Assembly: GCF_010500245.1 (NCBI RefSeq)
Contig: NZ_JAAGOX010000022.1
Coordinates: forward strand, 62,001-126,000
Direction: 5' to 3'
Length of the DNA: 64,000 nt
Origin: Ruegeria sp. PrR005
Lineage (GTDB): Bacteria > Pseudomonadota > Alphaproteobacteria > Rhodobacterales > Rhodobacteraceae
This document shows positions 35,538-40,610 of the stretch, one piece after another (the first letter of the stretch is position 1; each line of letters opens with the position of its first letter). The position numbers and the translations under genes are program-made. Under the pieces are notes generated by a model. That model worked only from the letters and a program-made list of their open reading frames with translations, did no database searches and had not been told where the DNA came from.

Positions 35538-37115
35538 TCAGTAGCCCAGCGCACAGCCGTCCTTGCGCGGATCGCTGCCCGCTGTCAGCACCCCGTCAGC
35601 CCCGATTCGAATCGCCTGCGCACCGCCCAGCGGCTCTTCGGGGATGATCACCTTGTGGCCCATCCCGATCAGCGCCTGCCGCACGTCATCGGAATAGCCG
35701 CGTTCAACCTTCAACACCCCCGCATCGGCAAAGGCGCGCGGCATGTCGATGGCGGCCTGCGGATCCATCCCGAAATCCACCAGGTTCGAGGTGAACCGCG
35801 CGTGCCCGGTCGGCTGATAGGCGCCACCCATCACGCCAAAGGGCATCTCGACCCGGCCATCCCGGCACAGCATGCCCGGAATGATCGTGTGCATCGGCCG
35901 CTTGCCGCCCGCCATCTCGTTCGGGTGGCCCTCTGTCAGCGTGAATCCCGCGCCCCGGTTCTGCATCAGGATGCCGAATTTCTGCGATGCGATACCCGAG
36001 CCGAACCCGTGGTAGATGGAATAGATCAGCGACACCGCCATCCGGTCGCGATCGACCACGGTGATATAGATCGTGTCCTTGTGCACCGCCTCGGTCAGCG
36101 GCGCGGCCGCCGCCATGGCGCGCTTCGGGTCGATCAGCGCCGCCAGCCGCGCCGCCGTTTCCGGCGCCAGCATGTGATCCAGACGCGTGGTGTGGTCCGG
36201 GTCGGCAATGAACCGGTTGCGCGCGTCATAGGCCAGCTTGGCGGTCTCGGCTTCGATATGAATGCGCTGGGCGCCCAGCGGGTCCATCCCGGCAATGTCG
36301 AAATGTGACAGGATGTTCAGCATCAGGATCGCCGTCGCGCCCTGGCCGTTGGGCGGATGCTCGACCAGGTCGACCGCGCCATAAGATCCCGCCACCGGAT
36401 CGGTAGGGGTACAGGCGGTGGCGGCGAAATCCTCGACCGTATGCACCCCACCAAGCCCGTTCAGCGCGGCGACCATGTCCTCGGCCACTTCGCCGGTGTA
36501 AAACGCATCGCGGCCGTCGCGCGCGATCCGGCGCAGCACCTCTGCTTGCCCAGGTGCTGCAAACATCTGCCCCGGTTTCGGGATCGTGCCACCGGGCAGG
36601 AACCAGTCCCGCGCCGCGCCCTGCAAAACCTCGGCATCGCTGACCCAGTCCGCCGCCACCCGCTGGGCAACGGGCACGCCCGCCTCGGCATAGCGGATCG
36701 CCGGGTCCAGCACCGCGTCGAGCCCGATGCGCCCCTCGGTCTCACACAGATGACAGAACGCGTCGATGGCGCCGGGTATGGTGACCGCCTCGGGCCCGGT
36801 CAGCGGCACCGCCGCCAGCCCCCGCGCCCGCAGCGCGGCGGCGCTGGCCGCCGCAGGCGCCCGGCCCGACCCGTTCATCGCCCGCACCGTGGTTTCGCCG
36901 GGCCGGTTGTAAAGCACGAAACAGTCGCCGCCGATCCCGGTCATCTGCGGCTCGCAAATGCCCAGCAGCACCGCGCCCGCAATCGCCGCATCCATCGCGT
37001 TGCCGCCGCGTTTCAGGGTTTCGATCGCCGTCTGGGCCGCCAGCGGGTGCGAGGTGGCGCACATCCCGGTCGTGGCAAAAACCGGCGATCTGCCGGGCAA
37101 GTGAAAATCGCGCAT
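35538..37115 (-). CDS. Gamma-glutamyltransferase family protein
   Basis: 525-aa Ntn-hydrolase precursor. In the family, autocleavage frees an N-terminal Thr nucleophile; here the equivalent segment is VHKDTIYITVVDRD, with Thr in KDT, then YSIYHGFGSGI. The N-terminal large-subunit hallmark GGNAMDAAIAGAV and the MTGIGGDCFVLY motif are clear. No signal peptide is visible, so it is cytosolic, unlike enterobacterial Ggt; it may process a gamma-glutamyl or other amide. AAGGAG is 9 bases before ATG 37115. Confidence 0.9.
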   Translation of the reverse strand: MRDFHLPGRSPVFATTGMCATSHPLAAQTAIETLKRGGNAMDAAIAGAVLLGICEPQMTGIGGDCFVLYNRPGETTVRAMNGSGRAPAAASAAALRARGLAAVPLTGPEAVTIPGAIDAFCHLCETEGRIGLDAVLDPAIRYAEAGVPVAQRVAADWVSDAEVLQGAARDWFLPGGTIPKPGQMFAAPGQAEVLRRIARDGRDAFYTGEVAEDMVAALNGLGGVHTVEDFAATACTPTDPVAGSYGAVDLVEHPPNGQGATAILMLNILSHFDIAGMDPLGAQRIHIEAETAKLAYDARNRFIADPDHTTRLDHMLAPETAARLAALIDPKRAMAAAAPLTEAVHKDTIYITVVDRDRMAVSLIYSIYHGFGSGIASQKFGILMQNRGAGFTLTEGHPNEMAGGKRPMHTIIPGMLCRDGRVEMPFGVMGGAYQPTGHARFTSNLVDFGMDPQAAIDMPRAFADAGVLKVERGYSDDVRQALIGMGHKVIIPEEPLGGAQAIRIGADGVLTAGSDPRKDGCALGY

Positions 37116-37403
37116 CGGGTTGGTCTCCTTCAAGTCCCGCCGACATTAATCCGGGCGCGGGCGAAGTCCAATCCGAAGCACAAACGGCGCCCGTGACCGG
37201 GACAGGGCAAGGCATCGAAAGGGGAAAAAGGGCGTCTGGCCTGGTACGCCCCTGGCATATAGTCCTCGACGTTGCGCACTGGGTGGGGGCTGTAACGCGC
37301 AACGTCGAGGGAAGCCATATGCAGCTACAGGTTCTGTATGTCCCCGCATTGCGGCACGAATTCGGATCAATTGCGGCCAGATTGAGGCATTTTCCACTTT
37401 CGG
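37116..37403. other. Intergenic region upstream of ggt, with a large inverted repeat
   Basis: This 288-base region separates ggt from the anti-sigma-like gene on the same strand. It holds the ggt promoter and the 14-bp inverted repeat at 37264-37310. A small plus-strand frame starting ATG at 37319 exists but has no ribosome site and no recognisable product, so it is not called. Confidence 0.5.
37264..37310. repeat. 14-bp perfect inverted repeat, 19-base loop
   Basis: CCTCGACGTTGCGC (37264-37277) and GCGCAACGTCGAGG (37297-37310) are exact inverted copies. An RNA made from either strand would form a very stable hairpin. No T-run follows on the plus strand, and on the minus strand ACTATATG-type sequence follows, so it is not a standard terminator. 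Confidence 0.9.
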
Positions 37404-37847
37404 TCAGGCATCCGGCTTTTCCGGCAGATCGAACCTGAGCCACAGCAGGTTCTTGTCGCCGCGGCGTTCGTACTTGATCTCGGTCGCAAGTTGCCGAATC
37501 AGAAACCAGCCGAATCCCCCTTCGGGCAGATCTGCCGGTTCGGCGGGTTCCCCGCTTGGCAGATCGCCGCCCGGCATAGGGCGGCCGCGGTCATGGATAC
37601 GAATCTCCAACCGGCCGGCGCGCAGATGGCAACTGACATGGATCTGCCCCGCCTCGACACCGGCATAGGCATGCTCGACCACGTTGTTTATGGCCTCGGC
37701 CAGCGCGATCTCGACATCGCCGGTCCGCTCTTCCGAAATCCCTTGCTGGCGAAGTTGTCCGGCAATGGCACGGATTCCCTCCCGGGCTTCCAGATCGTTG
37801 GCGCTGAAAGTCACGAGGAACCCTGCCCGATCCGTATCCAGGTTCAC
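37404..37847 (-). CDS. RsbW-like anti-sigma ATP-binding kinase
   Basis: 147-aa GHKL-fold protein (HATPase_c_2). The N-box EIALAEAINNVVEHAYAG near residue 47 and the G1/G2-like segments IHDRGRPMPGG and EGGFGWFLIRQLATEI match partner-switching kinases such as RsbW/SpoIIAB. These bind and sequester a sigma factor or phosphorylate an STAS antagonist. It lies 21 bases downstream of the STAS gene, so the pair forms a module; no sigma factor or phosphatase is nearby. Confidence 0.9.
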   Translation of the reverse strand: MNLDTDRAGFLVTFSANDLEAREGIRAIAGQLRQQGISEERTGDVEIALAEAINNVVEHAYAGVEAGQIHVSCHLRAGRLEIRIHDRGRPMPGGDLPSGEPAEPADLPEGGFGWFLIRQLATEIKYERRGDKNLLWLRFDLPEKPDA

Positions 37848-37868: not shown

Positions 37869-38207
37869 TCACTTTTGCCGCGCGGTCAAGGCCTCGTCGA
37901 GCGTGGCAAAAAGGTTGAAGACGGTATCCATGCGGGTCAGGCGGAACACCTTGTCGACCACCGGCGTCAGGCCCGCCAGTTCCAACCGCCGGTCGCCGCC
38001 CAACTGCTTCATCGACGCAACGATGGCCCCCAGCCCGCTGGAATCGATGAACTTCACCTGCGACAGATCCAGCACGACCCGCTGCGGTCCGGCTTCGGTT
38101 TCGCTGCGCATGTCCTCCTTGAACTGGATCGCCATCGCTGCGTCGATCCGCTCGACATTGACGGCAATGATCCGTGTGTCACCGGAATCGGTACTGGTCA
38201 GACACAT
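37869..38207 (-). CDS. STAS-domain anti-sigma factor antagonist
   Basis: 112-aa RsbV/SpoIIAA-like protein. The phosphorylatable Ser lies in VKFIDSSGLGAIVAS. The rest is a single STAS fold. ATG 38207 is supported by GAGGAG seven bases before it; a longer in-frame start adds nothing recognisable. First gene of the two-gene partner-switch unit, divergent from the thiolase gene. Confidence 0.92.
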   Translation of the reverse strand: MCLTSTDSGDTRIIAVNVERIDAAMAIQFKEDMRSETEAGPQRVVLDLSQVKFIDSSGLGAIVASMKQLGGDRRLELAGLTPVVDKVFRLTRMDTVFNLFATLDEALTARQK

Positions 38208-38305
38208 ACTCCCACTCCTCGGGTGGCTACTTTTCGCCGCACGAGGGTAGACGGCAATTCTTACCATTCGGTATTCAGGCACAGAGCTTTCCTCAGGAGG
38301 ACAGG

Positions 38306-40511: not shown

Positions 40512-40540
40512 GTCTCTCTCCTGAGTTAGTTACCGAGAAG

Positions 40541-40556
40541 CGTAATCATGATTACG
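40541..40556. promoter_or_regulatory. Palindromic operator, copy 1 (TetR/membrane protein)
   Basis: Perfect 16-base palindrome CGTAATCATGATTACG, 29 bases upstream of the membrane protein start. Its centre is 28 bases from that of copy 2. Confidence 0.85.
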
Positions 40557-40567
40557 GTTGCGAGTAT

Positions 40568-40585
40568 CCGTAATCATGATTACGG
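40568..40585. promoter_or_regulatory. Palindromic operator, copy 2 (TetR/membrane protein)
   Basis: Perfect 18-base palindrome CCGTAATCATGATTACGG, 25 bases upstream of the TetR-family ATG. With copy 1 it forms a twin site between the divergent genes, typical of autorepression plus repression of the adjacent operon. Confidence 0.87.
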
Positions 40586-40610
40586 TGCGCGTCAAGCGAA
40601 AGGAAACCCG

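Follow-up and report, generated by a model that had tools for sequence, protein, structure and literature searches.

What is the role of the perfect inverted repeat that lies between an RsbW-like gene and the gamma-glutamyltranspeptidase gene ggt in Ruegeria sp. PrR005? The repeat is part of a 64,000-nucleotide stretch of contig NZ_JAAGOX010000022.1 (positions 62,001 to 126,000; this whole stretch is called the window below, and coordinates are those of the window), and its arms, 37264-37277 (CCTCGACGTTGCGC) and 37297-37310 (GCGCAACGTCGAGG), are exact reverse complements (14 of 14 positions) with 19 bases between them. An earlier note, made by a model from the letters alone, had described just such arms and loop in a 288-base gap about 150 bases ahead of ggt, and these measurements hold: 288 bases separate the rsbW stop (37404) from the ATG at 37115-37113, the likely start of ggt (picked by eye with the help of a Shine-Dalgarno-like AAGGAG and the MRDF start of ggt homologues), and the near end of the hairpin is about 150 bases away from this codon. 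The comparisons below indicate that the repeat is almost certainly the main stem of a structured RNA of the minus strand, and that this RNA is probably the product of an independent small RNA gene which acts in trans through its loop.

The hairpin, its conservation and its strand

Perfect 14 bp inverted repeats with a spacer of 3-60 bases occur at a mean of 0.13 per order-2 Markov version of the 64 kb window, and 7 of 60 such versions hold any; the expectation for 288 bases is about 0.0006. The window itself has two places with such a repeat, the hairpin and a palindrome at 40541-40584. The region 37250-37326 folds at -36.1 kcal/mol (z -4.8) when read from the minus strand and at -37.0 kcal/mol (z -3.7) when read from the plus strand, and in each case none of 200 shuffled sequences folded as well.

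When 61 related genomes were searched with a 271-base query, 21 matched, and past the nearest relatives it was mostly the hairpin region that aligned. Twenty-two of the 23 aligned matches make up a MAFFT alignment (A2; the other, L024, was left out and later assigned to the second class described below), in which RNAalifold finds 18 base pairs, 10 of them with double changes. A covariance model, R1, matches 299 of 394 Rhodobacteraceae genomes, equal to 298 of 393 genera (Roseovarius, Sulfitobacter, Rhodovulum and Pseudooceanicola are among the matches listed), and 4 of 289 genomes in a class-wide sample, all 4 from Rhodobacteraceae; both searches used strict filters, by which weak matches are lost. 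The window element scores 94.8 bits (G000:C22:99254-99328, minus strand), and this match delimits a conserved core of 75 nt at 37254-37328 on the minus strand, whose 5′ end would be G37328.

Conservation of the pairing in related genomes had been set beforehand as the test on which the hairpin could fall; the pairing is conserved, and both arms (on the minus strand 37297-37310 is the 5′ arm and 37264-37277 the 3′ arm) carry compensatory changes. Across 104 distinct homologues (alignment A3, from 106 matches in 100 loci on named contigs), whose rows were fitted to R1 and so favor its structure, unlike those of A2, 98.7% of pair cells are paired, against a mean of 94.5% after shuffling, and sliding the partners by 1-3 columns lowers the figure to 30-53%. 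Double changes are present in 12 of the 18 pairs and in 81 cells (shuffled means 6.8 pairs and 16.7 cells). The cells that are not Watson-Crick pairs comprise 250 G-U, 5 A-C and 20 other mismatches. Since a G-U pair on one strand is an A-C mismatch on the other, the preponderance of 250 over 5 indicates an RNA read from the minus strand of the window. Perfectly palindromic arms could also belong to an element that works as DNA, be it a protein site (one of the options in the earlier note), a cruciform or a mobile repeat; however, compensatory changes between diverging arms and G-U pairs on one strand are needless for a DNA site, and the element keeps a fixed place between the same genes and is present once in its own genome (a single match with R1 or with R2, a model introduced below). 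A purely DNA-level role is hardly credible.

The loop (37278-37296) reads G C C C C C A C C C A without exception across the 22 sequences of A2 and is near-invariant in the family as GCCCCCACCCAGU; the near-invariant GCCCCCACCCAGT, which is also found in the second class, occupies 37290-37278 and is proposed to be the active site. The stem varies among homologues while the loop stays fixed, which suggests that the loop does the work; this unchanging C-rich loop probably grips other RNAs or a protein. Two further conserved parts lie outside the coordinates of the earlier note and had escaped it: the promoter-like repeats discussed below (37353-37387), and a 5′ mini-hairpin (37313-37326) in which 37323-37326 would pair with 37313-37316. 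In the latter, 99.3% of cells are paired, but substitutions are confined to one of the four pairs and there to a single side. In folds computed from the window sequence alone, this part favors a different pairing, and in the G078 homologue the mini-hairpin is altered and longer and still folds.

Promoter-like repeats and the 3′ end

In a profile of 161 non-redundant upstream regions, drawn from 170 distinct copies of the RNA, C stands out at positions -59, -48, -37 and -26 relative to the inferred start, and these peaks describe four 11 bp direct repeats (CC, two bases, A, A/T); past these come a conserved A/T-rich box at -12 to -8 and a G at -6. At least two full repeat units are present in 113 of the 161 promoters, all four in 2 and none in 5, and in mononucleotide-shuffled controls a mean of 0.8 of 161 regions had at least two. 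In the window, CC is present in each of the four repeats (at 37387, 37376, 37365 and 37354, with the repeats spanning 37353-37387 of the minus strand), and its -10-like box, at the conserved A/T-rich positions, is CATACA (37335-37340, minus strand). A scan of the region for the sigma-70 consensus gave no site. The peaks at -37 and -26 are also visible, more weakly, in 29 second-class copies. Tandem 11 bp spacing is typical of OmpR/PhoB-type regulators, and it is proposed that the four repeats are the site of a response regulator of this type, whose binding would activate the promoter so that transcription starts near G37328 on the minus strand. The repeats, the -10-like box and the divergent neighbor of the second class (see below) together suggest that the RNA has a promoter of its own.

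CenR was considered as the regulator and set aside; its motif, in the available excerpt of the source, is a TGA-N8-TGA direct repeat (PMC9275681), which illustrates the 11 bp spacing with a different sequence, and the promoter profile consists of CC..AA units every 11 bp with no TGA/TCA consensus. A search pattern that comprised two complete units plus the beginning of a third, and tolerated at most one mismatch, has six matches in the genome of the window and none when reversed as a control. One of the six is the promoter of the window RNA and another falls within a long open frame (L224). Others precede a REC-domain gene (L219, G000:C1:205878) and a gene whose product is a GSGGTK-repeat protein (L220, G000:C11:442442), and it is possible, judging by the shared pattern, that these two genes are co-regulated with the RNA.

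At the other end, conservation falls to background no more than about 10-15 bases past the stem, through a G-poor C/T tract. The statement in the earlier note that no T-run follows the repeat is correct for the arms themselves, and the main stem is indeed not an ordinary terminator, but about 11 bases past the second arm the minus strand carries a weak terminator-like hairpin (37253-37225: GGGCGT, a 10-base loop, ACGCCC and TTTTT), which a terminator scan missed because its loop is longer than the scan permits. This hairpin is a possible 3′ end. The RNA would therefore be about 75 nt long if it ends just past the stem or about 104 nt if it ends at the 37253-37225 hairpin, and some read-through into ggt is possible.

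Gene neighborhood and a second class of RNAs

The neighbors of the element lie on its own, minus strand: upstream are the RsbW-like ATPase gene (37404-37847; Pfam HATPase_c_2, E 3.9e-28) and an RsbV-like gene with a STAS domain (37869-38282; Pfam STAS, E 6.8e-18), and downstream is ggt (35538-37115; Pfam G_glu_transpept, E 3e-131). The constancy of this arrangement was examined by tblastn (E 1e-3) in 119 loci on named contigs, which were taken by exact pattern among the matches listed and are thus biased toward close matches; at least 900 bases were required downstream (109 loci) or upstream (104 loci). Within 800 bases upstream, RsbW is encoded in the same orientation in 95 of the 104 loci and was not found in 9; within 1,200 bases downstream, GGT is encoded in the same orientation in 95 of the 109 and was not found in 14. 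Two tandem exact-pattern copies occur in 3 of the 119 loci, and some genomes have three copies, spaced about 200 bases (for example, G347 and G245). That the RNA is kept where ggt or rsbW is missing argues that the small RNA gene stands by itself and is not a leader of ggt.

The regular position behind rsbW, together with the lack of a canonical T-run, would also suit a 3′ untranslated region of the rsbV-rsbW mRNA whose end, processed or stabilized, would be the hairpin. The promoter-like repeats, however, sit between rsbW and the RNA, RsbW was not found at the nine loci just mentioned, and RsbW is absent from the best loci of the second class, whose neighbor is divergent; such an origin is very unlikely.

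This second class came to light through weak R1 matches, which led to RNAs that share the loop (GCCCCCACCCAGT), have a 5′ part of the form AGCG...CGCU and adjoin a gene for a DUF2794 protein (E 1.4e-18). A covariance model, R2, was built from 13 second-class RNAs with no rsbW-linked sequence included; made without the window, it nevertheless recovers the window element at E 1.6e-10. R2 matches 215 of 295 family genomes, and since it recovers rsbW-linked RNAs, many of these 215 matches belong to the first, rsbW-linked class. Among the best 30 second-class loci, DUF2794 is divergent and upstream in 30, at a distance of 98-333 bases, so second-class transcription must start inside that interval; RsbW is found in none of the 30 and GGT in 1. 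No second-class copy was detected in the genome of the window with either model.

The stem of the second class also covaries, with 11 of 15 pairs doing so in alignment A4. In a recount on 34 of the 37 rows of A5 (the 3 dropped were the opposite strand of matches already counted), double changes are present in 12 of 15 pairs and 71 cells; shuffling gives a mean of 21.8 cells, and 0 of 500 shuffles equalled the observed number. The second-class mini-hairpin is mostly invariant, with 2 double-change cells, a number equalled by 5 of 500 shuffles. A terminator-like site follows 19 of the 30 second-class RNAs (0-2 in shuffles). In one genome (G294; locus L251 on C34) 211 bases separate an rsbW-class-like copy from a DUF2794-class copy; DUF2794 lies upstream and the locus also contains GGT, and this links the two RNA classes.

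Some other loci deserve mention. L210 (G128:C1:1033691) resembles L251 in having DUF2794 upstream and GGT in the locus, a possible bridge between the two settings, and L209/L245 (G298:C25:74570-75101) has three tandem, strongly diverged DUF2794-class copies, about 210-250 bases apart, in which the C-rich loop is kept. Elsewhere in the window, the second palindromic repeat (about 40534-40591; AATCATGATT core, arms of 24 at 88%) is strong and lies at a gene start; it is probably the operator of the adjoining gene, whose product looks like a TetR-type protein by eye.

The loop, its possible partners and known RNAs

Several observations weigh against an independent RNA that acts in trans. The link to ggt is tight (in 95 of 109 loci GGT lies downstream in the same orientation), and a terminator-like site follows just 10 of 161 first-class copies (1-6 in shuffles), so that such a site does not characterize the family. 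With 67 G-U against 13 A-C, the second class gives a less clear strand signal than the first, and the mini-hairpin, with its weak covariation support, is hardly tested by covariation. Long complements of the loop with at most two mismatches occur at 8 other places in the genome of the window compared with 16 control matches, which is no excess. Finally, the UpsM/mraZ leader was tried as a target and rejected, as the duplexes of the loop with eight such leaders were equalled or beaten by 15, 16, 17, 27, 65, 114, 176 and 187 of 200 shuffles.

The first two of these points favor a cis-acting leader of the ggt mRNA (a riboswitch, attenuator or stability element), whose transcription would begin at the same promoter and continue into ggt. 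This explanation is quite unlikely: GGT was not found downstream at the 14 loci noted above, the best second-class loci adjoin DUF2794 and have GGT in a single case, tandem copies occur, and conservation stops directly past the stem, not at the ggt start. Thus, among the three options that the earlier note had offered, the leader is weakened, while the small RNA gains from covariation, the G-U strand signal, the promoter-like repeats, persistence without ggt or rsbW, and the second class.

The two negative target tests would, in turn, suit a protein-binding decoy, in which the C-rich loop would bind an RNA-binding protein and titrate it, to a capacity set by the number of copies. In favor of this, the loop is conserved far beyond the need of one target, and several genomes have two or three tandem copies; however, there is no candidate protein, most genomes among the matches listed have one or two matches, and known alphaproteobacterial RNAs with C-rich loops work by pairing, at least according to the available excerpt on CcnA (PMC8959179). 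A decoy is thus unlikely, if worth keeping in mind. For the independent small RNA, which is preferred here, it is proposed that the open loop GCCCCCACCCAGU would be the active part and would pair with G-rich stretches of target mRNAs, by analogy with the CCCC loop of CcnA and the conserved GC-rich loop of EcpR1, and that the RNA would end just past its main stem or at the terminator-like hairpin.

No named RNA like this one was found in the open-licence literature searched, and an entry under another name in an RNA-seq catalog is quite possible. Rfam 15 gave only sub-threshold matches for the window region (snoTBR2, 17.8 bits with 62 needed, and sX5, 12.1 with 50 needed) and 0 matches for 8 homologous loci. 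It therefore appears to be a new small RNA family, members of which may already stand in RNA-seq catalogs without a name.

The comparisons with described RNAs that follow are limited to the available excerpts of the papers cited. CcnA of Caulobacter crescentus is 182 nt long, and its CCCC loop pairs with GGGG near ribosome-binding sites (PMC8959179). Both are alphaproteobacterial non-coding RNAs with a C-rich loop and a tie to an OmpR-family regulator (a CtrA box in CcnA; here suggested by the repeats), but the window RNA has 11 bp CC..AA repeats and a conserved core that measures about 75 nt, and its place is next to rsbW-ggt or DUF2794, whereas CcnA lies at the replication origin; the two are set apart by this difference in locus, that is, by description and not by sequence comparison. 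EcpR1 of Sinorhizobium meliloti has a conserved GC-rich loop (PMC4414408) and likewise a variable stem elsewhere, but its loop is UCCGCCGCAUCU and it is encoded downstream of divK-pleD in Rhizobiales. StsR (RSs0827) of Rhodobacter sphaeroides is a small RNA from the same bacterial family and of similar length (72 nt; PMC8307010, PMC11354728). Its probe target lies at G078:C4:858073, and the homologue of the window RNA lies at C4:87169 of that genome and differs in sequence, so StsR is rejected; from the exact probe match, G078 would be R. sphaeroides or very near it.

The HRC-8-4 motif, which is confined to Rhodobacterales, is also a strong stem with conserved bases at its tip and lies between ccoP and ccoG (PMC8632094). 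Hairpins of 9-14 bp upstream of ccoG in three of five genomes (L271 and L272, from the genus of the window, and L274) have a conserved loop with CTGTTCGCGCGTTTCCT, not GCCCCCACCC, and are probably this motif; its neighbors differ from those of the window RNA, as does the loop in the three hairpins found, and it is rejected as well. Single-mismatch copies of the C-rich/G-rich nonamer are scattered in 3 of the 5 ccoG loci, outside those hairpins. Small-RNA papers on Ruegeria pomeroyi and Paracoccus denitrificans (PMC4809877, PMC5107571) gave no match, their available text being without sequences. Two of the P. denitrificans RNAs, 'intergenic 134' of 84 nt and 'intergenic 60' of 80 nt, are reported to be conserved in the family, and they are unverified candidates for the same RNA.

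Covariance models R1 and R2 would make it possible to annotate these RNAs now and to trace them in RNA-seq data that already exist. Testable handles are provided by the promoter with its four 11 bp repeats, the loop as proposed active site, and the conserved place beside RsbV/RsbW-type genes. The RbaVW region of Rhodobacter capsulatus reportedly affects stationary-phase viability. Its rbaV and rbaW genes, which appear to correspond to the RsbV/RsbW-type genes of the window, encode RsbV/RsbW orthologues that affect gene-transfer-agent production, and the available part of that text contains neither 'downstream of rbaW' nor 'intergenic' (PMC3999984). Because roughly three quarters of the genera sampled from this large and ecologically important family carry the RNA, it probably has a general role. 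A bolder and rather doubtful idea is that the two RNA classes, rsbW-ggt and DUF2794, form a family-wide regulatory system that is present in one to three copies and controlled by a single dedicated OmpR/PhoB-type regulator, and that their fixed C-rich loop would sequester an RNA-binding protein or control a core mRNA; if this were true, the RsbV/RsbW (RbaVW) partner-switching region would be tied to control at the RNA level.
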